From Halobacteroides halobius DSM 5150 (GTDB taxonomy: Bacteria > Bacillota > Halanaerobiia > Halobacteroidales > Halobacteroidaceae): 64,000 nucleotides of DNA. A program made the position numbers and the translations under genes. Each line of letters opens with the position of its first letter. Positions within the stretch are counted from its first letter, which is position 1. The notes beneath the pieces are model-generated. The model did not search any database. It was not told the DNA's origin and was given only the letters and a program-made list of their open reading frames with translations. Location: the NCBI RefSeq assembly GCF_000328625.1, contig NC_019978.1, positions 434,001 through 498,000 of the forward strand, given 5' to 3'. Below, piece by piece: positions 42,874 through 54,674 of the stretch.

Positions 42874-45800
42874 ATGAAAAAGAAAATTTTAATATTTATC
42901 TTATTATTTTGGGTAGTTAGTTTGCCAGTATATTCTTTTAGCAATGGTCCAATTGTTAAACAAAAGGCATCAGAGGAGAAATATTCTCATTTGCAAGTAT
43001 CATCACCTGATTGGCGAGATCAAGTTATTTATTTTATATTAACAGACAGATTTAATGATGGAAATCCTGATAATAATAACCAAGGAGTTGGAGAATATAA
43101 TCCTAACCATAAGGATTTTTATAGCGGAGGAGATTTACAAGGGATTATAGATAAAATTAATTATATAAAAAACCTAGGAGCAACAGCAATTTGGATTACT
43201 CCTCCTGTAGCTAATCAATGGTGGGATCCTTGGGTACAAGTAACAGGTTATCACGGTTATTGGGGACGGCATTTCAAGAAGGTAGATGAACATTATGGTA
43301 CATTAGATACTTACAAAAAATTATCAAATATTTTGCATAAGAATGGAATGTATTTGATTCAAGATATAGTTCCTAACCATACAGGAAACTTCTTTACTTA
43401 TAAGGATGATAAATATAATCCTTATAAGCCAGGTGAGAATTTCATATTAAATAAGAAGTCAGAACCTGTTAGTAAGCCAGTTCAATATCCATTTAATATG
43501 AATAATTATAATAATCAGAAAGATCGCAAGGCTAATATATACCACTGGACGCCTAAGATTAAGGATTACAAGAACAAAAAGCAGGAAAAAAATTATCAAA
43601 TTAGTGATCTTGATGATTTAAATACAAGTAATCCAGCAGTTAGAGATGCATTAAGAGATTCTTATGGATACTGGATAGAGGAAGTAGGAGTAGATGGATT
43701 TAGGGTAGATACAGTTAAATTTATTGAACATGAGTTTTGGAATGACTTCTTTTATGCTGATGATGCTGAAGCACCAGGTATTATGAAAGTAGCTAAGAAG
43801 AATAAAAAAGATGATTTCTTAGCCTTTGGAGAAGTATTCGAAGCTTCTGATCCTTTAAGTAAAGAAGGAGATAAAAAGGTAACTAGGTATTTAGGTACTA
43901 AAGATAAGCCAGAGTTACCAGCTGTCTTAAACTTTCCTTTACATGTAACATTAAGAAGGGTTTTTGCTCAAGGAAGGCCAACGCATCATTTGAGTTATAG
44001 ACTAAATGTAACAATGAATGAATATAGAAATCCGTATATAACTCCATTGTTTATTGATAATCATGATGTAGCTAGATTTTTAGAAAAAGGTTCTCGTAAA
44101 GCTATGAAACAGTCTTTAATGTTTATGTTTACTATTCCAGGAATTCCGATTGTTTATTACGGGACAGAACAAGGATTTACTGAACAACGTGGTTCAATGT
44201 TTGCTGAAGGATTTGGTTCTGGTGGCAAAAATCACTTTAATCAACAGGCTAATTTATATCAGTATATTAAGAAGTTAGCAGAGACTAGAACTTCTAATAG
44301 GATATTAACTAGAGGTACAATTGATGTATTACAGGATAATCATTCTGGTTCAGGAGTCTTTGCATATAAGAGAGAATATAAAAAGAAGACGGCTTTAGTT
44401 CTCTTTAATACGGCAGACCATCCAGTATTAATGAGTAACCTTGGGACTGGATTGAAAGAAGGAACTAGGTTGAAGACGCTTGTACAGATGAATGAATCTG
44501 ATGAAGTTGTAGTCGGAGAGAATGGTGAAATTACTACGGAACTTGCACCTAGAGCCGGATTAGTATTATTATCCACAGAAAAGAAAAGGGATATTGCTAC
44601 GACTGATTCTAAAATAGATGTTCAAACAACAATTAATAATGAAACGTTTACTGATGATATTAAATTACAAGGTAAGGTAAAAGGTGATATTGAACAATTA
44701 CGAGTAGTAGTAGATGGAAATCTTGCACAAGCAACAGATGTAGTAGTCGGTGCAGATGGAAATTGGAATGTAAATCTACCAATTAAAGAGTTTGGATTAG
44801 GTAAGAATCAACACAGTTTAGCTGTTTATGCTGCAGATAAAGGTATTGTTTCAGAAAGGTTTACTTTTACTACTAAAGTAAGTAGCCAGAGTTCAAGTCT
44901 TATAGTTAAGGATCCAGCTGGTGATATCCACGGGCCAAAAGGAGAATATACTCTTCCACAAGATAAAAGCTTTGGTTCGCAAATGGATATCAGACAAGTA
45001 AAAGCAACTCTAGTAGGCGGTAACCTAAAATTAAACTTAAAGATGGCGGAGATAACTGACACTTGGAATCCAGATAATGGATTTGATCATGTAGTATTCA
45101 ATATATTTATAGATTTACCAAATGAATCAGGAGCTAAAGTACTACCAAGATTGAATGCTACTGCTCCAGAAGGATTCAAGTGGGATTATCAAGCATTTGT
45201 AGATGGTTGGAATAATGCTTATTATTCTGCTGAAAGAGCGACTAAAGATAAGTATGGTAAATCGATAATTCCAGCCCCAAAAGTAAAAGTAAATAAAAGT
45301 AAGAAGACGATAGAATTTAAGTTTAAATCTGACTCTTTTGCTGGTTTAGGTAATTTAGTGGGAGTGAAAGTCTATATAACAACTTGGGACTTTGATGGTT
45401 CGCAAGGTATCTTACGTCCATTAACTTCTAAAGGTGGCCCTTGGTCATTTGGAGGTGGAAATGGAGATACTGATCCACTAATTGCTGATGATACTAAGAT
45501 GATTACTATTGATTCTGTTGATTATAATAAGCAGGCAATTGATAAAGCTGAACAAGAAAAGTTAGAAGTAAATGGAGATATAGCATTAGAAGTTGGCGAC
45601 TCAATAGAGTTGACGGTCAATAAAGAAGGTGTTATTTGGAAGTCTAGTAATGAGGAAATAGCTAAGGTTACTACTAATGGCAAAGTTAAAGGTATTAAAC
45701 CAGGAAAAACCACTATTACAGTTAGTTTAAAAGGGGAAACAGTAATAAAGACAATAAAAGTTAAAGAAAAAGCAGAGATTAATCAAGCTTACTTATTGGG

Positions 45801-46116
45801 AACAGCAACTAGTTGGAAGTTTAATAAGTTCACTGCAATGAAGCAAGTAGCAGATGGAGTCTACGAAGCAAAGATTAAAGCACCAGCTCCAGTAAAGAAA
45901 GATTGGGTCCCAGAAGGGAAGAACCAAGCTTTTAAGATAGGAACTAATGGAGCTTGGCCAAGTGATGGTGGAGGTCCAGCCTTTATAGGAAAAGATGGTA
46001 AGTTGAAAGAAGATACAGGGATGGGTAATATCTACTTGAATCTAGAAGAAGGAACAGAGTATATAGTTAGAGTTAATTTAAAGGAGATGACTTATTCTAT
46101 AGAACAAGTAAAATAA
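42874..46116 (+). CDS. Large secreted multidomain alpha-amylase (GH13)
   Basis: The 1080-residue protein has a signal peptide (MKKKILIFILLFWVVSLPVY) and a GH13 catalytic domain from about residue 45 to 500. The catalytic residues are visible: Asp279 in GFRVDTVKF, Glu320 in AFGEVFEAS and Asp398 in FIDNHDVARF, with QDIVPNHTG for conserved region I. Later domains: an all-beta region (about 575-665), a glucodextranase/DOMON-like module (about 670-875; SSSLIVKDPAGDIHGPKGEY), a bacterial Ig-like Big2 domain (about 890-965; GVIWKSSNEEIAKVTTNGKV) and a C-terminal starch-binding-like domain (about 970-1080; AYLLGTATSWKFNKFTAMKQ). It probably degrades starch or glycogen outside the cell. An operator of LacI/CcpA type controls it. 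Confidence 0.93.
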   Translation: MKKKILIFILLFWVVSLPVYSFSNGPIVKQKASEEKYSHLQVSSPDWRDQVIYFILTDRFNDGNPDNNNQGVGEYNPNHKDFYSGGDLQGIIDKINYIKNLGATAIWITPPVANQWWDPWVQVTGYHGYWGRHFKKVDEHYGTLDTYKKLSNILHKNGMYLIQDIVPNHTGNFFTYKDDKYNPYKPGENFILNKKSEPVSKPVQYPFNMNNYNNQKDRKANIYHWTPKIKDYKNKKQEKNYQISDLDDLNTSNPAVRDALRDSYGYWIEEVGVDGFRVDTVKFIEHEFWNDFFYADDAEAPGIMKVAKKNKKDDFLAFGEVFEASDPLSKEGDKKVTRYLGTKDKPELPAVLNFPLHVTLRRVFAQGRPTHHLSYRLNVTMNEYRNPYITPLFIDNHDVARFLEKGSRKAMKQSLMFMFTIPGIPIVYYGTEQGFTEQRGSMFAEGFGSGGKNHFNQQANLYQYIKKLAETRTSNRILTRGTIDVLQDNHSGSGVFAYKREYKKKTALVLFNTADHPVLMSNLGTGLKEGTRLKTLVQMNESDEVVVGENGEITTELAPRAGLVLLSTEKKRDIATTDSKIDVQTTINNETFTDDIKLQGKVKGDIEQLRVVVDGNLAQATDVVVGADGNWNVNLPIKEFGLGKNQHSLAVYAADKGIVSERFTFTTKVSSQSSSLIVKDPAGDIHGPKGEYTLPQDKSFGSQMDIRQVKATLVGGNLKLNLKMAEITDTWNPDNGFDHVVFNIFIDLPNESGAKVLPRLNATAPEGFKWDYQAFVDGWNNAYYSAERATKDKYGKSIIPAPKVKVNKSKKTIEFKFKSDSFAGLGNLVGVKVYITTWDFDGSQGILRPLTSKGGPWSFGGGNGDTDPLIADDTKMITIDSVDYNKQAIDKAEQEKLEVNGDIALEVGDSIELTVNKEGVIWKSSNEEIAKVTTNGKVKGIKPGKTTITVSLKGETVIKTIKVKEKAEINQAYLLGTATSWKFNKFTAMKQVADGVYEAKIKAPAPVKKDWVPEGKNQAFKIGTNGAWPSDGGGPAFIGKDGKLKEDTGMGNIYLNLEEGTEYIVRVNLKEMTYSIEQVK

Positions 46117-46161: not shown

Positions 46162-46410
46162 TTAGGTATTAATTGTATGGTGCATTTCGTGAATGAGATT
46201 TTCTATATTAAGTTTCCAATTTTGTAATTAGGGTTTAGGGACTATTTAAAAAATAGTTTTTATTTTGAATGATATTTAGAAAATGAAGGGAAAAGATATG
46301 ATTTGCGGAAAAAGGTATATGGGGATTTTAGATAGGTTATAATTAATCATACAGTTTTTTCTCGGACATGATATAATAAAAGAATATAAATTAAATTGGG
46401 GGAGAATATC

Positions 46411-46683
46411 ATGGCCAAACGTTATAATGATGAATTTAAAAAGAAAATTGTTAACCTTGTTAATAACGGTAAAAAGATAAGTGATATTATTAATGAATAT
46501 GGTATTGCAAGATCTACTGTCCATAAATGGAAAAAAGACTTTAATAATTCTGGTTCTTTTAAAGCTAAAGATAATAGAACTGATGAAGAAAAAGAACTAT
46601 TAAAATTACGTAAAGAAATTAAACAACTTAAGATGGAGAATGATATTTTAAAGCAAGCAGCGCTGATACTAGGACAAAAGTAG
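46411..46683 (+). CDS. IS3-family OrfA (DNA-binding)
   Basis: The ATG at 46411 (MAKRYNDEFKKKIVNLVNNG) begins 90 residues with a helix-turn-helix (KISDIINEYGIARSTVHKWK) and a leucine-zipper-like coiled coil (KLRKEIKQLKMENDILKQAA). This is the N-terminal half of an IS3 transposase. The frame ends at 46683, past the slippery site at 46647-46653, and OrfB lies in the -1 frame, so the functional transposase is made by frameshifting. Confidence 0.92.
   Translation: MAKRYNDEFKKKIVNLVNNGKKISDIINEYGIARSTVHKWKKDFNNSGSFKAKDNRTDEEKELLKLRKEIKQLKMENDILKQAALILGQK
46647..46653 (+). promoter_or_regulatory. Programmed -1 frameshift slippery heptamer of the IS3 element
   Basis: T TTA AAG (TTTAAAG) is aligned with the OrfA frame exactly as X XXY YYZ. 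After slippage the OrfB frame is open through to its end. No stem or pseudoknot was checked downstream. Confidence 0.75.
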
Positions 46684-47522
46684 CTGTTGTTAAGGCAAAT
46701 AAAGAGAAATACAGTATTAGCGCAATGTGCAAGGTGCTTAATATTTCAAGAAGTTCTGTTTATTACGAACCCAAGAAAAAGTCTTGTAATACCGAACTTG
46801 AAAATCTAATAATAACTATCTTTAAAAATAGTAGAAATAATTATGGGACTAGAAAAATCAAAAATAGACTAGATAAAAAAGGTTATAAAGTATCTCGAAG
46901 ACGAATATCTAAAATTATGAAAAAGTATGGTCTAGTCTCCAATTATACTGTTAAGCAGTATAAAGTTCATTCTCCAAAATGTAATGAAGAAAAAATAGAT
47001 AATATTGTTGATAGAGATTTCAATAAAAAGCAGGCCTTAGATGTTGTAGTTAGTGATTTAACCTATGTTAATGTTAATGGCAAATGGAATTATATATGCC
47101 TAATAATAGACCTGTTTAACCGTGAATTTATAGGTTGTGCTGCTGGTAAAAAGAAAGATGCTGAATTAGTAACTAAAGCCTTTTATAGTATTAAGAGACC
47201 AATTGATGAGATAAACATCTTGCATACTGACAGGGGTAATGAGTTTAAAAATAAAGCAATAGATCAGATTTTAAGTACATTCGATATTGAACGATCTTTA
47301 AGTAAAAAAGGTTGTCCTTATGACAATGCAGTAGCAGAAGCCGCCTTTAAAGTAGTTAAAACTGAATTTGTATTTAATAGAAAATTTAACAGTTTTGAAG
47401 AATTAGAATATGAGCTCTTTGATTATGTTAACTGGTATAATAACCACCGAATTCACGGGTCACTTGATTATCTTACACCTGTTGAATATAGGTATTTAAT
47501 GTCCGAGAAAAAAGTGGCCTAA
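46654..47522 (+). CDS. IS3-family OrfB transposase (DDE)
   Basis: The -1 frame is open from just after the slippery site; the first ATG is at 46725. It has an IS3-type HTH_21 part (RNNYGTRKIKNRLDKKGYKV) and an integrase core: VVSDLTYVNVNGKWNYICLI (Asp), LHTDRGNEFKNKA (Asp) and YDNAVAEAAFKVVKTEF (Glu). It is followed by NWYNNHRIHGSLDYLTPVEY, the standard end. It is probably made as an OrfAB fusion by the -1 shift. Confidence 0.92.
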
Positions 47523-47641
47523 AAAGTGTTGACAATCCAGTTATTAAAAAACAAGCTAAGAGTATAGAGAAAAGCTTTAAGGACTTTTTATTAAATATCA
47601 GAGGGATAATGAAGGAATTATTTGAGAGATAAAATTATGCA

Positions 47642-47957
47642 ATGCCTACAATAGATTATTATAATCAAAATGCAAGTAAATTTTATAAAAATACAGTTTT
47701 TGATGAAAATTGAAGAGATTTTTAAAAAGCTTATTAGGGCTTTAGTTAAGGATGGAGTAATCTATATTTACTTTAAATATGGTAATCGAGAAGTTTATAG
47801 AAATGTTAGATTATTTAACTAGTATGATGAAGATTCTTTTATGAAACTAAAGAATAAGTTTGTTGAATTAGAAGTAGTTAAGATGTGGAAGACTGCTGAT
47901 GTTAGGGAAAATCGAGAGGATGAATACTGACTTAATGTATTGATGAAAAAGAGTTAA
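47642..47957 (+). pseudogene. SAM-dependent methyltransferase with internal deletion
   Basis: The start (MPTIDYYNQNASKFYKNTVF) resembles the opening of small class I methyltransferases. After a TGA at 47711-47713 only the C-terminal part remains, and it carries stops: a segment with ALVKDGVIYIYFKYGNREVY, then KLKNKFVELEVVKMWKTADV and LNVLMKKS. The SAM-binding middle (LDAGCGSG in relatives) is missing. Stops at 47821 and 47928 interrupt the C-terminal part. Non-functional. A 34-residue open stretch just upstream (KSIEKSFKDFLLNIRGIMKE) belongs to something I cannot identify. Confidence 0.65.
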
Positions 47958-48446
47958 ATAACGGGCCAACTCCCTAACAACCAACAGATACATTACTATA
48001 AAAAGCAATAGTCATGTATCCCAATAGATGGTAGTTTCTATTATATTTCCAAAAAGGTGGGGAGTTACAACCTGCTAAAAATTGGCAAGAAGCGGTAGCT
48101 CTCCCCCCTTTTTTCTCTAATCGTCGTTGCAGCTAAAAGTTGCCTAGTACTAATGAAACGTTGTGAATATGAGATTATCAAAAATTCGTGAGTACACGTC
48201 AATAATAATCTAGAGTTAACGATATTTAGATTTAAATGAAAAAAATAATATAAAAATTAGAGGAATATAAAATAATTGTGATTTATTTTTATTATTTTCC
48301 GGATTAAACCGGAAACTATTGTCGCGTTTAAAGACTATGATTGCAAGTAGTTTTATGTTATTATATATATGTAGTCAAGAGAGATAGTTAGTTAATTTCC
48401 ACAATTGATTTAAAATTTAATTTAGAAGCATAAGGTGGTATACATA
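47958..48446. other. Gene-free region between the methyltransferase remnant and the PTS locus
   Basis: No gene is visible. Bases near 47979-48030 (ACCAACAGATACATTACTAT, then CAATAG) resemble the trailing end of the IS3 relic at 53280-53320, so this may be an IS scar. GC-rich bases near 48058-48112 include GGGGAG and CTCCCC arms with T's and could terminate transcription. The part after 48240 is the PTS promoter region. Confidence 0.5.
48296..48315. promoter_or_regulatory. Inverted repeat upstream of the PRD regulator gene
   Basis: TTTCCGG, six bases, CCGGAAA: a perfect 7-bp inverted repeat about 130 bases before the regulator start. It could be an operator for the PRD activator. No clear promoter was fixed. 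Confidence 0.45.
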
Positions 48447-50447
48447 ATGAACTTACCTAATAAAAGAAGTGGAAAAATATTAAGGATCCTATTAAACAAT
48501 CAAAAACCTATAATTATTAAAAAGTTAGCTAAAGAATTTGATGTTTCTGCTCGAACAATTAGGAGTGATTTAAAAAAACTTGAAGAGTGGTTAGAGTTAA
48601 GAAATATCACTTTGATAAAGAAACCAAGAGTAGGAGTTTGGATAGAGTGTGATAGTGTTGAAAAAACAGAATTAGAAAGGCAATTATTTAAAGCGCAAAA
48701 AAATAATGATCTACTATCTCCTTCTAGAAGGCAGAAATATATTCTAAAGTGTTTATTAGAAACTGATAAACAATATACTATGAAACTATTAGCTGAAGAA
48801 CTATATGTAAGTCGATCTACTATCTATAAGGATTTAAAAAAAGTTGAAACCTGGTTATCTAAATATGGTTTAATTTTAGAAAGAAAAAGAAATTGTGGGA
48901 TTAAAGTTAGAGGGGATGAAAAAAAATGGCGTAAAGCAGTAGCAGATTTATTAGCTGAGCTTAAAGGAGACCAGGAACTTAAAAAAATATTAGAAAAAGA
49001 GACTAGTTTAGAACCAGATAGTAGGATTGACACCAAAACTTATCAACAGTTAAAATCTTTATTTGGAGATATAGACTTCCGTAATATTGAGAAAATTCTG
49101 AAAGAAGCTGAGAATGAATTAGGATTTTTATTTACTGATGAGGCTTTTGCTGGGTTAGTAATTCATATAGCTATTAGTATTGAAAGACTAGAACAAGGTA
49201 AAGATATAAAAATGGATCAGGAACAATTAAATAATTTAAAGGCTAAAGAAGAATTTAAAGTGGCAGAGTATATTACTACTAAATTAGAGAATATATTAAA
49301 GATAAAAATTCCTAAAGATGAAGTTGGTTATATTTCTCTTCATATTTTAGGTGCTAAATTACAACAAAACATTCAAACTAAAAGTGTAACTGATGTTTTA
49401 GAAAATACTGATTCTAAAATAGTTAAAGTAGCTAAAGAAGTTATTAATTTAGCAGCCGAAGTATTAGAAGTTGAGTTTCAAGATGATAAACAACTATTAG
49501 TGGGATTAGTATTACATCTAAGGCCTGCTATTAATCGCTTAAAGTATGGAATGAGTTTACGAAATCCTTTATTAGATAGAATTAAAGAGGATTATCCTAG
49601 TGTTTTTGGAGCTGCGTGGGCTAGTAGCATAATCTTTGAAAAACATTTAGGAATTAAAGTTAATGAAGAAGAGGTAGGTTATATTGCTTTACATTTAGGT
49701 GCGGCTTTAGAAAGAATAAATAAAAAGATAAAGGCGGTTATTGTGTGTAGTAGTGGAATTGGCACTTCGCAGTTAATAGCCAGTAGATTAGCTAAAAGAT
49801 TATCTGGAATAGAAATTATGGATTTGATGGCAGCTCATAAATTAAAAAATAAAAATTTAGAAGAAATAGATGTCATTATTAGTACAATTCCATTAAATGA
49901 TTTAGAACAACCAGTAATTCAGGTAAGTCCTTTAGTAACAGAAAATGATATTAATTTAGTAAAGCAAAAGACTAATTATATTTTACAAGATAAAGAAGCT
50001 GAGAAGTTAGAATTGGATTTAGAACTGAATAAAATTCACCAATTATTAAACCAAAATTTAATATTTGTAAATTTAGATGTTGAGAGTAAAGAAGAAATTA
50101 TCAAATTTCTAAGTCAGCAATTATTAGATAGAAATAGTATTAAAGAAGATTTTATTGAATCAGCTTTAGATAGAGAGAAGATAACTTCTACTGGAGTAGG
50201 TAATAAGGTTGCTATTCCTCATGGCAAAGAAGATTATGTGTTAGAGTCTAAAATAGCAATAGCAACTTTAGAAAATCCAATCAAGTGGGGAGCTGAATCT
50301 GTAAATATTGTTTTTCTGTTAGCTCTTAAAAATAAAGAATCTAAGGTGTTTTTTAAGCACTTTCATAAGATTCTTGATAATCCAAAAGCAATCAAGAAAT
50401 TAGAAGAATCTACAACTAAGGAAAATATAATAAAGTCTATTTTATAA
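48447..50447 (+). CDS. PTS-controlled PRD transcriptional activator (ManR/MtlR type)
   Basis: The ATG at 48447 is eight bases after AAGGTGG. The 666-residue protein has two HTH domains (about 5-60, VSARTIRSDLKKLEEW; about 85-140, VSRSTIYKDLKKVETW), two PRD domains with conserved His (about 215-300, FAGLVIHIAISIE; about 320-410, LVLHLRP and GYIALHLGAALER), an EIIB-like domain with VCSSGIGTSQ (Cys434) and an EIIA domain with IPHGKED (His592). Such activators are phosphorylated by PTS proteins on PRD His and the EIIA/EIIB sites, so they respond to sugar and carbon status. It lies 14 bases before the PTS genes it presumably controls. Confidence 0.92.
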   Translation: MNLPNKRSGKILRILLNNQKPIIIKKLAKEFDVSARTIRSDLKKLEEWLELRNITLIKKPRVGVWIECDSVEKTELERQLFKAQKNNDLLSPSRRQKYILKCLLETDKQYTMKLLAEELYVSRSTIYKDLKKVETWLSKYGLILERKRNCGIKVRGDEKKWRKAVADLLAELKGDQELKKILEKETSLEPDSRIDTKTYQQLKSLFGDIDFRNIEKILKEAENELGFLFTDEAFAGLVIHIAISIERLEQGKDIKMDQEQLNNLKAKEEFKVAEYITTKLENILKIKIPKDEVGYISLHILGAKLQQNIQTKSVTDVLENTDSKIVKVAKEVINLAAEVLEVEFQDDKQLLVGLVLHLRPAINRLKYGMSLRNPLLDRIKEDYPSVFGAAWASSIIFEKHLGIKVNEEEVGYIALHLGAALERINKKIKAVIVCSSGIGTSQLIASRLAKRLSGIEIMDLMAAHKLKNKNLEEIDVIISTIPLNDLEQPVIQVSPLVTENDINLVKQKTNYILQDKEAEKLELDLELNKIHQLLNQNLIFVNLDVESKEEIIKFLSQQLLDRNSIKEDFIESALDREKITSTGVGNKVAIPHGKEDYVLESKIAIATLENPIKWGAESVNIVFLLALKNKESKVFFKHFHKILDNPKAIKKLEESTTKENIIKSIL

Positions 50448-50461
50448 AAGGAGTGAGTTAG

Positions 50462-50911
50462 ATGAATGATTTAATTAATGAAGAATTAATCAGTTTAGAT
50501 GTAGTTAAGGGGGATAAACAAGAAATAATTAAGTCATTAGCAAGCTTAATTGATAAAAGTGGAAGATTAGAATCATTAGATAAATACTATGATAGTTTAC
50601 TCACTAGGGAGGAAAAATCTAGTACTGGAATTGGAAATCAAATAGCTATTCCTCATGGTAAATCTAGTAGTGTTAAAGAACCAACTGTAGCTTTTGCTAG
50701 ATTAAAAGAAGGAGTTGATTGGGAGGCAATTGATGACCAATCAGTAAAATTAATCTTTTTATTAGCTATTCCTGAAGAAAGTAAGTCAGATGATCATTTG
50801 AAGATTCTAGCTACTTTATCTCGTAATTTATTAAATGATGGTTTTAAAGAAGAATTATTAAATGTTCAAACTAAAGAAGAAGTTAATAAAATTTTAACTC
50901 AAATGTTTTAA
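50462..50911 (+). CDS. PTS EIIA component, fructose/mannitol type
   Basis: The 149-residue protein has the EIIA(Fru) phosphorylation site in STGIGNQIAIPHGKSSSV (His65). It is phosphorylated by HPr and passes the phosphate to EIIB. Length and motif match stand-alone EIIA(Fru/Mtl) proteins. It starts behind GGAGTGA and is followed by EIIB 27 bases later. Confidence 0.93.
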   Translation: MNDLINEELISLDVVKGDKQEIIKSLASLIDKSGRLESLDKYYDSLLTREEKSSTGIGNQIAIPHGKSSSVKEPTVAFARLKEGVDWEAIDDQSVKLIFLLAIPEESKSDDHLKILATLSRNLLNDGFKEELLNVQTKEEVNKILTQMF

Positions 50912-50938
50912 TAATAAAATTAATAAGGAGTGATGATA

Positions 50939-51250
50939 ATGAAAATAGTTGCAGTAACAGCTTGTCCTACTGGAGTAGCTCATACTTATTTAGCAGCAGA
51001 ATCTTTAGAAAAGAGTGCAGAAGAAAGGGGAGTAGAGATTAAGGTGGAAACCCAAGGATCAGTTGGAATAGAAAATAAAATCACTAAAGAAGAAGTAGCA
51101 GAAGCTACAGCAGTTATTATAGCTGCAGATATTAATATTTCTAAGCCAGAAAGATTTAAAGGAAAGCCTAAGTTAAAGCTTGAAGTTCAAAAAGCAATTA
51201 AACATTCAAATCAAATCATAGATAAGATAATTAAAAACTTTAGAGAATAA
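50939..51250 (+). CDS. PTS EIIB component, fructose type
   Basis: AAGGAG fits the ATG at 50939, eight bases away (MKIVAVTACPTGVAHTYLAA); the closer GTG and ATG are too near. The 103-residue protein has the conserved Cys9 in TACPTGVAHT, which takes phosphate from EIIA and gives it to the sugar. The ETQGSVGIENKI segment is also diagnostic for the fructose family. It lies between EIIA and EIIC. Confidence 0.94.
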   Translation: MKIVAVTACPTGVAHTYLAAESLEKSAEERGVEIKVETQGSVGIENKITKEEVAEATAVIIAADINISKPERFKGKPKLKLEVQKAIKHSNQIIDKIIKNFRE

Positions 51251-51281
51251 TCAAAAACTTATAAATTAGGAGGGATAGTTT

Positions 51282-52355
51282 ATGAAGGAAAAGTTAAAAG
51301 AAATTAGAGGTCATTTGATGACTGGTGTAAGTCACATGATTCCTTTTGTAGTTGCTGGTGGTGTATTAATTGCTTTTGCAATTATGTTAAGTGGTGTTGA
51401 GGCTGGTAAGGGAGCGAATGTAACTAATCCGGCTCTTAAAAATTTATTGGATTTAGGGGTAGCAGGATTTACAATGATGGTTCCAGTTTTAGCAGGTTAT
51501 ATTGCTTATTCAATTGCTGATCGTCCAGGATTAGCTCCAGGTATGATTGGAGGTTATTTAGCAGGACAGATTGGAGCAGGATTTTTAGGTGGTATTGTTG
51601 CTGGTATCATTGCTGGTTATGTTGCTAATTGGATTAAAAATTGGTCTGTGCCAGAAGTTTTAAAACCTGTAATGCCTATTTTTGTGATTCCGTTATTATC
51701 TACAATTATTGTTGGTAGTTTGATGCAGTATGTAATAGGAGCTCCTATTAGTAACTTTATGACTGGTCTTAAAGGTTGGTTACAAGCTATGAGTAATGGA
51801 AGCCAAGTAATATTTGGGATTATCTTAGGAGCTATGATTGCCTTTGATATGGGTGGGCCAATAAATAAAACAGCTTTCTTATTTGGTACAGGATTAATTG
51901 AACAAGGTGTATATACGGTAATGGGGCCTATTGCTGCAGCAATTTGTATTCCACCATTAGGTATGGCTTTAGCAACTACACTAGCACCTAATAAATATAC
52001 GGAACAAGAAAGACAAGCAGGTAAAGGAGCTTTCTTTATGGGATTGATAGGAATTACTGAAGGAGCAATTCCTTTTGCAGCAGCTGATCCAATTAAAGTT
52101 ATTCCTTCTATCGTCACAGGTTCTGCTGTAGGTTCAGTAATAGCTATGTTAAGTGGAGTAGGAGACCATGCTCCTCATGGAGGTTTAATTGTATTGCCAG
52201 TAGTAGATAATAGATTAATGTTTGTTGTGGCAATTGCTGTTGGAGTAGCAATTACTGCTGTAATGGTAAATGCTTTAAAATCAGAGGTAGAAGAAGAAAT
52301 AGTTGAAGAAGAGTCAGCAGAGGAAGAGCTTGATTTAGAATTTGATATGAGTTAA
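51282..52355 (+). CDS. PTS EIIC sugar permease, fructose/mannose (ManP-like) type
   Basis: The 357-residue membrane protein has about nine or ten helices and fructose-EIIC signatures: HLMTGVSHMIPFVVAGGVLI near the start, DRPGLAPGMIGGYLA, AFDMGGPINKTAFLFG, and GITEGAIPFAAADP around residue 250. GDHAPHGGLIV is near the end, and the acidic C-terminal tail is unusual (many Glu). The gene order with a PRD regulator and a downstream isomerase remnant resembles manR-manP-manA. Substrate: fructose or mannose, with mannose favoured by context only. Confidence 0.9.
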   Translation: MKEKLKEIRGHLMTGVSHMIPFVVAGGVLIAFAIMLSGVEAGKGANVTNPALKNLLDLGVAGFTMMVPVLAGYIAYSIADRPGLAPGMIGGYLAGQIGAGFLGGIVAGIIAGYVANWIKNWSVPEVLKPVMPIFVIPLLSTIIVGSLMQYVIGAPISNFMTGLKGWLQAMSNGSQVIFGIILGAMIAFDMGGPINKTAFLFGTGLIEQGVYTVMGPIAAAICIPPLGMALATTLAPNKYTEQERQAGKGAFFMGLIGITEGAIPFAAADPIKVIPSIVTGSAVGSVIAMLSGVGDHAPHGGLIVLPVVDNRLMFVVAIAVGVAITAVMVNALKSEVEEEIVEEESAEEELDLEFDMS

Positions 52356-52377
52356 TTTGATAAGAAGATAATATCTT

Positions 52378-52411
52378 AACCTCTTGGGGTGGCCCTAAGA
52401 GGTTATTTTAT
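52378..52411 (+). terminator. Terminator after the PTS operon
   Basis: AACCTCTT pairs with AAGAGGTT, with an inner GGG/CCC pairing, then ATTTTAT. Confidence 0.75.
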
Positions 52412-52439
52412 ATAAAATCAAATAATGTTGTAGAGAGGA

Positions 52440-52835
52440 GATTAAAGAAGAAAAGATTTGGGGAGAAAGAGCTTTAGAGAATAAACTACATAGAGATTTA
52501 CCAGAGGGCTTAATAGGTAGTTAGGAGCTAGCAGCTCATGACAATGGTAGTGGTAAGGTAAATAACGGAAAGTTAGCTAGGAAGACACTAATGGAAGTTA
52601 TTAAAGAAGAAGGAGAAAAAATTTAGGAACCAAGGCTAAGGATGAGTATGCTTTGCAACATGAGAATGGAGAGTTAGATAAGACAGGGATGTGGTATGTG
52701 ATTGATGCTAAAGACTAAATTAGTCTATGGAGTTAAACCTGATGTAAGTAAAGAGGAATTTGTAGCATCCATTAGAGAAGGGGGGATAAGAAAACTTAAA
52801 TGAACTTAATGTTAAAGCCGGTGCCCTATATGTTA
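52440..52835 (+). pseudogene. Mannose-6-phosphate isomerase remnant
   Basis: Scattered fragments match class I mannose-6-phosphate isomerase (ManA): IKEEKIWGERALENKLHRDL near the start, then GSGKVNNGKLARKTLMEVIK, then KLVYGVKPDVSKEEFVASIR with an upstream YALQHENGEL piece in another frame, and finally NVKAGALYV. Several stops and frameshifts separate them and the catalytic middle with the zinc ligands is deleted. It immediately follows the PTS operon terminator. ManA converts mannose-6-phosphate to fructose-6-phosphate, so its presence supports mannose as the original PTS sugar. Confidence 0.7.
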
Positions 52836-52899
52836 GGATAGTTATCGTAAGGAATAAAATCTGTGTTATAATAAAGTAACGACAATAAATCCTATTCTC

Positions 52900-53262
52900 A
52901 AGCCATAGCTAAAAAGAAGAAACCTTTAGTATTACACTCTAATAATGGTAGTCCTATGCAAGCAGCAACATTTATAGCAACTTTAGATAAACTAGGAATA
53001 CAGAGTTCATTTTCAAGGCTAAGAGTAAGTTTTGCATAGTGGGATTAATTTTATAACGCCCTATCAAAGACATCATGGGCTTGATATAGATATAATGCAG
53101 AAACGTATTGAAACATATAAAAAAGCAAAAGCAGCTTATCCAAAAAGATGGTCAGGAGAAATTAGAGATTGGTCTCTTCCTAAATATGTTACATTGAATC
53201 CAATGAAAAAAGACGAAGTGGAAAAATATCTCCACCAACAGAAATCCTAATTGAAGTTCTGG
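52900..53262 (+). pseudogene. IS3-family transposase remnant
   Basis: A DDE core piece remains (KKKPLVLHSNNGSPMQAATF with the Asp replaced by Asn, then FSRLRVSFA), followed after a deletion by the transposase tail: HSGINFITPYQRHHGLDIDI, then KAKAAYPKRWSGEIRDWSL and KYVTLNPMKKDE. The last 72 codons (53032-53250) stay open but are only the end of an IS3 transposase. It is not the same IS3 type as the element at 46355. Confidence 0.75.
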
Positions 53263-53336
53263 ATGGAGATTATTCAAAACAACCAACAGATCCATCACTA
53301 TAAACCCCAATAGTAATAGATAGTACAGCAGGAGAT

Positions 53337-54674
53337 TTAGCAACCTAACTTATTCCCTAGATAAATACCACTAGCTGCTGCCTGAGCTAAAGACCAAGAA
53401 ACTCCGGAAGCATCACCGATTAAGTATAAATTTTCTATTTGTGTTTGAAAGTTTTTATCTAGCTTGATCTCTGGTTGATAAAATTTAGCATCTAGACCAT
53501 ATAATAAAGTATTAGCAGCAATTGGCTGATTAATCAACTTCTCTAGAGCCTGAAAAAATTTTCTTATTGCAGTTAAATACAGCTTAGGAATCTCTTTATA
53601 TAAATTAGTAGGCTCTGCTTGTAAGCTAGGAGTAATACTATTAGCAACTAGCCTTTTTTCTGTTGTAGCTAACTTTTGTTTTAAATCTCCCCAACGCTGA
53701 ACAATTATTCGTTCCCGGTTTTGATTAATTCTACCGATTATATTAGCAGCATAATCTCTTGCTTGCTTTGAAGTAGGAAAGTAGCGAGGAACAAACAGAG
53801 TAAAATTTAGTTTATTAGTAGCTGCTGTACCTTCAGCATAATTTTGCCCATCCGCCATTACTAGTCCCTGGTGATATTTTCGTACCACCTGTCCGCCGGG
53901 ATTCATACAGTAAGTTGTAGCTGTAAAATCAGTTCCTTGATAACGCAGTTTAGTCTCAAAATTATCCTGGAGAATACTCGCAAGCTGTTTTTGCTTCATC
54001 TCAACTCTAATTCCTAAATCAACCCTAGTATTAAAGGTAGTAACCTCGGGAAAAGATCCTAACAAATTATTACTAGTAAGCCCAGTAGCTAAAACAAGCT
54101 GATCAGTCTTATAAATCCCTTGATTAGTTTGTAAATAAAATCTATTTTGCTTATCAATGGAAGTAACTTCTGTATTAAATCTAAAATCAATTCTATCCTT
54201 CAGACGATGATATAGATTAGTTGTAATTTTATAAGTTAGATCTGTTCCTAAATGTCTAACGGTAGTAGTTAGTACCTCTAAACCATGTTCTTTTGCTTCC
54301 TGGATCAACTTAGGATTTTTAGTACTGTAATGAGTTGTCTTATCCGTTCCTAACGAATAGAGAATCTGGTCGACTTTGTTTTGTAGTTTAAAAGCTGTAT
54401 CAGTATTTAATTTAGTAGCTAGTTTACCACCAAAGTCAGTTGTATAATTAAACTTTCCTTCCGACTTGGCCATAACTCCGCCTAGTCCTGATAATTGATC
54501 ACATTTATTACAACTAACACACTGTTTAGTCTCTTCTTGTAAGGGACAACTTCTTTTTTTAAGTGGACGACCTTGATCTATAATTTGAATCTGTAACTTT
54601 CTATCTTTCTGCAATAAAGTATAAGCTAAAAATAAACCACTTACTCCAGCACCTACTATTGTAATTCTCTTCAT
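53337..54674 (-). CDS. FAD-dependent dehydrogenase (COG2509 type)
   Basis: The 445-residue flavoprotein has the FAD-binding ITIVGAGVSGLFLAYTLLQ at residues 3-21. A Cys-rich segment (QCVSCNKCDQLSGLGG, about 50-66) looks like a redox or metal site. The C-terminal flavin-contact motif is LYLIGDASGVSWSLAQAAAS (about 418-437). The family (FAD-dependent dehydrogenases related to geranylgeranyl reductases) has no settled function. It is transcribed away from the RseC-like gene. Its start context is GGAGG before ATG. Confidence 0.85.
   Translation of the reverse strand: MKRITIVGAGVSGLFLAYTLLQKDRKLQIQIIDQGRPLKKRSCPLQEETKQCVSCNKCDQLSGLGGVMAKSEGKFNYTTDFGGKLATKLNTDTAFKLQNKVDQILYSLGTDKTTHYSTKNPKLIQEAKEHGLEVLTTTVRHLGTDLTYKITTNLYHRLKDRIDFRFNTEVTSIDKQNRFYLQTNQGIYKTDQLVLATGLTSNNLLGSFPEVTTFNTRVDLGIRVEMKQKQLASILQDNFETKLRYQGTDFTATTYCMNPGGQVVRKYHQGLVMADGQNYAEGTAATNKLNFTLFVPRYFPTSKQARDYAANIIGRINQNRERIIVQRWGDLKQKLATTEKRLVANSITPSLQAEPTNLYKEIPKLYLTAIRKFFQALEKLINQPIAANTLLYGLDAKFYQPEIKLDKNFQTQIENLYLIGDASGVSWSLAQAAASGIYLGNKLGC

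Follow-up and report, generated by a model that had tools for sequence, protein, structure and literature searches.

The stretch analysed here (the window) covers 64,000 nucleotides of Halobacteroides halobius DSM 5150, positions 434,001-498,000 of a genome consisting of a single contig of 2,649,255 bases (completeness 99.99%). It contains a phosphotransferase system (PTS) locus in which the gene of a PRD transcription activator is followed by genes for the EIIA, EIIB and EIIC subunits of a transporter and by the remains of manA, the mannose-6-phosphate isomerase gene. The locus belongs to a known kind of system, with a redundant gene in decay. The regulator and transporter genes are intact. 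The locus is probably an autoregulated PTS operon of the ManR/ManP kind, with mannose as the likeliest substrate, whose redundant operonic manA decayed while an unlinked copy was kept; the assignment of mannose as the likeliest substrate, judged by itself, is one that we favour with reasonable confidence. The substrate, the direction of regulation and the redundancy of the operonic manA are inferred. The literature searches made turned up nothing on this locus. The locus leaves the picture of mannose metabolism unchanged. Its useful part is the conserved operator: for one lineage of PRD activators among these anaerobes, the predicted site and the promoter geometry that goes with it are conserved across seven genomes.

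A search with EIIC covered 61 genomes, including that of H. halobius, and 22 gave a match at E ≤ 1e-60. Six relatives carry an orthologous operon: G003, G005 and G007 from the same family, and G027, G037 and G046 from Halanaerobium (G005 is Orenia metallireducens, G003 its congener, G027 Halanaerobium salsuginis and G046 H. congolense). Loci L034 (G007), L035 (G005) and L036 are those of the three same-family relatives. A wider survey took the best 80 EIIC relatives with their flanks from named genomes, some on contigs that end near the match; L096, L126 and L161, all three of them ManR-linked, come from genomes already among the six relatives; L126, which also has a ManA match in its flank, is from G005.

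The PTS operon and its predicted operator

The regulator gene (48447..50447, plus strand, as are the other features of the operon) encodes a transcription activator of the ManR/MtlR type. Pfam identified an N-terminal helix-turn-helix (HTH), a Mga-type HTH, two PRDs, an EIIB-like domain and an EIIA-2 domain, so that the PRD activator with EIIA and EIIB domains described in the first-pass annotation was recovered in full; no sigma-54 domain appeared among the Pfam matches at E ≤ 0.001. Translation was taken to begin at the ATG at 48447, the GTG at 48435 given in the list of open reading frames (ORFs) lying within the likely ribosome-binding site. Numbered from this ATG, residues H240, H299, H357, H416, C434 and H592 are identical in all seven orthologues. 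They comprise four histidines of the PRD region, a cysteine of the EIIB-like domain and a histidine of the EIIA-like domain, and would be phospho-acceptors if their roles follow those of the family.

The three transporter genes encode EIIA (50462..50911; PF00359 145.5 bits; TIGR00848 139.5 bits, cut-off 103.5), EIIB (50930..51250; TIGR00829 116.9 bits, cut-off 76.85) and EIIC (51282..52355; TIGR01427 342.6 bits, cut-off 157.55; NF007787 443.9 bits, cut-off 426). All three subunits thus exceed the curated fructose-family cut-offs, in agreement with the family assigned to them beforehand. The listed start of EIIB is a GTG, but an AAGGAG stretch is better positioned in front of the ATG at 50939. 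EIIC is 79-85% identical to its counterparts in the six relatives, with proportions of nonsynonymous differences (pN) of 0.10-0.13 against 0.48-0.63 for synonymous ones (pS) in six pairs. EIIC and EIIB together evolve slowly (pN 0.09-0.15, pS 0.48-0.64), the regulator and EIIA more loosely (pN 0.22-0.34). As a side observation on this gene, G005 (L035) has two tandem EIIC genes, 51% and 86% identical to that of the window, and in G007 (L034) the first tandem EIIC survives only as an internally deleted remnant of 77 aa.

Since the regulator, EIIA, EIIB and EIIC genes are arranged head to tail and separated by only 14, 18 and 31 bases, they are likely to be carried on a single transcript, and the same order is found in all six relatives. 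EIIC is followed by a predicted intrinsic terminator (52377..52405; 13-pair stem, T-rich tail). A stable hairpin stands 3' of EIIC in all seven loci, including those of G003 and G005, where it precedes an intact manA. An Rfam scan of 47400-53700 gave 0 matches.

The arrangement resembles that of manR/manPA in B. subtilis, which likewise combines an activator containing PRD, EIIB-like and EIIA-like domains, a fructose-family transporter, a linked class I ManA (here, in relatives) and an activator site upstream of the promoter (here predicted). The gene order does resemble the Bacillus manR-manP-manA order proposed by the first-pass annotation, with a small correction regarding the transporter: Bacillus ManP is one EIIBCA chain (extract of PMC6148471), whereas EIIA, EIIB and EIIC are separate in the window. 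Two further differences are that the regulator and transporter genes of the window appear to form one unit, whereas manPA-yjdF and manR are described in excerpts of PMC4495994 as two ManR-activated units, and that the operonic manA of the window is a remnant, with the intact gene unlinked. The operons of the Orenia genomes G005 and G003 share with the window the regulator-EIIA-EIIB-EIIC order, the operator with its spacing and the hairpin after EIIC, but their manA, directly downstream, is intact.

The predicted operator of the PRD activator is the inverted repeat TTTCCGG-ATTAAA-CCGGAAA (48296..48315), found at a conserved position upstream of the regulator. The repeat, noted as perfect, had been suggested earlier as a possible activator site; it is conserved in seven genomes as an operator should be, although its rarity alone does not go beyond chance. 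The H. halobius genome has TTTCCGG-N6-CCGGAAA at one place and its reversed control at three, and the uniqueness of the exact palindrome was dropped as evidence for that reason. An alignment of the seven upstream regions yielded the conserved form TTCCRNANTRAANYGGAA, which has one match per genome in all seven, before the regulator, against 0 for the reversed control; as the pattern was built from these seven sites, its presence there is circular and its absence elsewhere is not. The chance expectation is about 0.08 for the H. halobius genome, based on its composition. Because the site is kept at the same place in all six orthologous loci, we regard it as above chance. Its inner arm is symmetric in L036 (GC/GC) and L038 (AC/GT) and not fully so in L034, L035, L037 and L039.

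A predicted -10 hexamer, TATTAT (48359..48364), follows the 18-mer core of the operator at a distance of 44 nt, with no clear -35 sequence; 44 nt is the only offset at which a TANNNT hexamer follows the 18-mer in all seven loci. The resulting position of the operator centre, about -65 from the putative transcription start, fits a class I activator, and the ManR sites of B. subtilis are placed upstream of -35 in the excerpts of PMC4495994. Clostridium ganghwense (L128), which was not used for the pattern, has TTCCGCATTAATGTGGAA before its regulator, one mismatch from TTCCRNANTRAANYGGAA. Scanning the best 80 loci for TTCC-N10-GGAA gave scattered matches, of which only those of L128 and of the genomes already known stand before a ManR-like gene. 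A second near-match, at 585,833 of the H. halobius genome, was rejected, as it lies inside an ORF resembling an RND-type transporter (named by eye) and not before one. L034, L035 and L036 have a second TTTCCGGAAA stretch, about 37 nt before the regulator start, which is absent from the window.

The decayed operonic manA and the intact copy

Behind the terminator lies a manA pseudogene (about 52444..52834), in which the 5' half of a gene for a class I mannose-6-phosphate isomerase survives in decayed form, delimited by tblastn, reading frames and alignment. With the intact ManA of H. halobius as the query, tblastn found the remnant at 52441-52794 (E 7.5e-17). Its readable pieces span all three frames and are interrupted by a stop codon in frame, by further frame changes and by a gap some 27 codons long; the 3' half is missing, with nothing recognisable past about residue 170 of 348. 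The complete open frame with catalytic domain expected of a class I isomerase is therefore lacking, and the operonic ManA is dead, as the first-pass annotation had claimed. Among the parts that the remnant lacks are the stretches that read QVHP and GTVH in the intact protein, which we take to hold metal ligands.

The same annotation had expected imported mannose-6-phosphate to accumulate unless another ManA existed, and had itself named a second intact manA as the result that would overturn this view. Such a gene is present on the same chromosome. A protein search located it at 1,352,619-1,353,662 (minus strand), encoding 348 aa with no internal stop, and TIGR00218 matched the genome only once, at 1,352,706-1,353,644 (minus strand; 194.9 bits, and 204.5 bits in a further scan, cut-off 116.2). 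This complete open frame above the curated cut-off encodes a class I enzyme; among proteins of solved structure, mannose-6-phosphate isomerase 1qwr is the nearest to it (E 2.4e-73). PF01238 had 0 matches in the genome, the intact ManA being itself without a match to that C-terminal Pfam model; taken alone, this zero count would have spoken for the lack of a second manA, which the TIGR00218 match contradicts. PF10432, the C-terminal domain of bifunctional PGI/PMI enzymes, also had 0 matches in the genome. Since an intact unlinked ManA exists, mannose-6-phosphate has a predicted outlet. That the isomerase is dead and mannose-6-phosphate a dead end, possibly toxic, has the destruction of the operonic copy in its favour but is contradicted by the intact class I manA, and we consider it very improbable. 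As read from the genome sequence, the decay of manA at this locus is ordinary gene loss that entails no metabolic dead end. The decay of a linked gene can mislead when the remaining genome goes unchecked.

The origin of the remnant was examined through its relatives. An intact manA stands directly after EIIC in G003 and G005, its products being 68% and 71% identical, respectively, to the intact ManA of H. halobius, and is absent from the other four fetched stretches (tblastn). This occurrence at the same place in two of six relatives suggests that the remnant is what is left of the operon's own isomerase. Over 130 aligned residues, the remnant matches the operonic ManA of G005 and the single ManA of G007 at 87 positions each (67%), the second G005 copy at 85, the operonic ManA of G003 at 83 and the intact ManA of its own genome at 81 (62%). 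Since it is nearer to the ManA of the G005 operon and of G007 than to that of its own genome, the remnant does not appear to have arisen from the latter by recent duplication. In a tree of 18 ManA rows, the remnant and the Orenia copies belong to an 11-row group (support 93/91) outside which the intact ManA of H. halobius falls, and no strongly supported smaller group places the remnant. G005 has two manA genes in total and G003 three; G007 lacks an operonic one, and the only manA in its genome (G007:C10:497026-498069) lies about 2.2 kb upstream of the regulator.

Substrate and proposed regulation

Gene neighbourhoods and sequence similarity bear on the choice of mannose as the substrate. Among the best 80 EIIC relatives, 32 have a ManR match of at least 600 aa in the flank, and a ManA match (tblastn E ≤ 1e-6) is found in the flank of 9 of these 32 ManR-linked loci versus none of the other 48. 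The best solved relative of EIIB is the B. subtilis mannose EIIB 2r48 (105.6 bits), with the fructose EIIB 2r4q at 98.6 bits. Halanaerobium praevalens, a relative, uses D-mannose, as stated in an excerpt of PMC3156398.

The transporter could instead take fructose or a fructose-like sugar, with the neighbouring manA of some relatives serving another purpose. All subunits belong to the fructose family and their best models are fructose-named, several relatives have no nearby manA, and a FruK-like gene lies on the operon strand in L095 and L128 (both of which also have manA), and on the other strand in L119 and L155, among the 80 loci. However, although its EIIA, EIIB and EIIC are of the same family as those of a fructose PTS operon (DeoR-type regulator, fruK, EIIA, EIIBC), the operon of the window has no fruK for 1-phosphofructokinase. 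A full fructose operon is found elsewhere in the genome, with a DeoR-type regulator, 1-phosphofructokinase (TIGR03828 357.4 bits, cut-off 292), EIIA and EIIBC, and manA stands directly downstream of the transporter in two relatives. We therefore regard fructose import as unlikely, though as the most serious competitor to mannose. Close to this fructose operon, near 2.56 Mb, L040:289-2313 (minus strand) encodes a sigma-54 activator that has an HPr-like domain at its N terminus (PF00381 42.2 bits), an HTH at its C terminus and two PAS stretches; this domain content led us to reject it as a candidate HPr-EI fusion.

A mannose or fructose derivative is a further candidate, such as 2-O-alpha-mannosyl-D-glycerate, which serves some organisms as a compatible solute, with ManA handling the hexose phosphate released from it. 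EIIC does match the mannosylglycerate transporter model NF007293, but at 247.7 bits, far below the cut-off of 763, and it scores higher with other models of the fructose family. From the regulator gene to the hairpin behind EIIC, no gene that would encode a sugar-cleaving enzyme was seen in the window or in the six relatives, the ORFs beyond these limits not having been run against family libraries. Import of such a derivative appears improbable.

Several observations weigh against a ManR/ManP-type mannose operon. The best curated model for EIIB, NF007783 (136.9 bits, cut-off 135), is named fructose-like and that for EIIC, NF007787, fructose, and the margin by which EIIB resembles the mannose EIIB of B. 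subtilis more than the fructose one is small. No manA adjoins four of the six orthologous operons, including all three of Halanaerobium, and 23 of the 32 ManR-linked loci have no ManA match, some of their flanks being short. In the H. halobius genome, rarity does not set the exact palindrome apart from its reversed control; outside the seven genomes, L128 is the only ManR-linked locus with a like site before the regulator; and the operator pattern was not found at the intact manA, so that co-regulation is unsupported. Synonymous divergence (dS) is high, and the transporter genes may have been relaxed recently.

Under the mannose reading that we prefer, regulation would proceed as follows. Without the sugar, phosphate would pass from EI, for which the genome has one gene above the cut-off (753.2 bits), through HPr, EIIA and EIIB to the activator, which, by analogy with MtlR and ManR, would be kept off by phosphate on its EIIB-like cysteine and EIIA-like histidine. 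During sugar import, the transporter would drain phosphate from the activator, while phosphorylation by HPr at the PRD histidines would hold it competent. The activator would then bind the TTTCC-N10-GGAAA palindrome, which lies some 65 bp upstream of the predicted start site, and raise transcription of the whole operon, its own gene included. The sugar would enter as a phosphate ester, most likely mannose-6-phosphate, which the unlinked intact ManA would convert into fructose-6-phosphate. The operonic manA would have been a redundant copy behind a terminator, whose truncation and decay left the pathway running.

A broader scenario can be offered only tentatively, as we hold it to be doubtful: within this group, an operonic isomerase behind the terminator was lost or never gained several times while the unlinked ManA was kept, which uncoupled the PTS from the isomerase; mannose-6-phosphate might then feed an anabolic GDP-mannose or osmolyte pool besides glycolysis, and TTTCC-N10-GGAAA would represent a one-target regulon of this activator lineage.

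Sequences flanking the operon

Just after the truncated manA, a likely transposase remnant (52908..53247, plus strand) carries a weak match to the integrase core PF00665, confined to 52908-53036 (E 0.0017, 19 bits, below the cut-off of 32.6), and looks IS3-like by eye; 53032-53247 had no match in the domain and family library scans. As this remnant adjoins the truncation, it is plausible that an insertion element truncated manA. A plasmid search with 52350-53340 gave no match.

A 40-nt direct repeat, 85% identical, at 47976-48015 and 53278-53317 (spacing 5302) brackets the whole PTS operon and could represent the boundaries of an old mobile unit. No third copy was found in the genome with 52836-53336 as the query, and 53199-53278 has a 94% copy at 807,634. 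Just upstream of the operon, an IS3-family element (46396-47522) comprises an HTH_Tnp_1 ORF and a transposase (NF033516 253.7 bits); an imperfect inverted repeat of 24 nt accompanies it, with copies at 46352-46375 and 47493-47516. This element and the PTS operon are preceded by a gene (42874-46116) for a 1080-aa, apparently secreted protein that resembles an alpha-amylase, as judged by eye from its translation.

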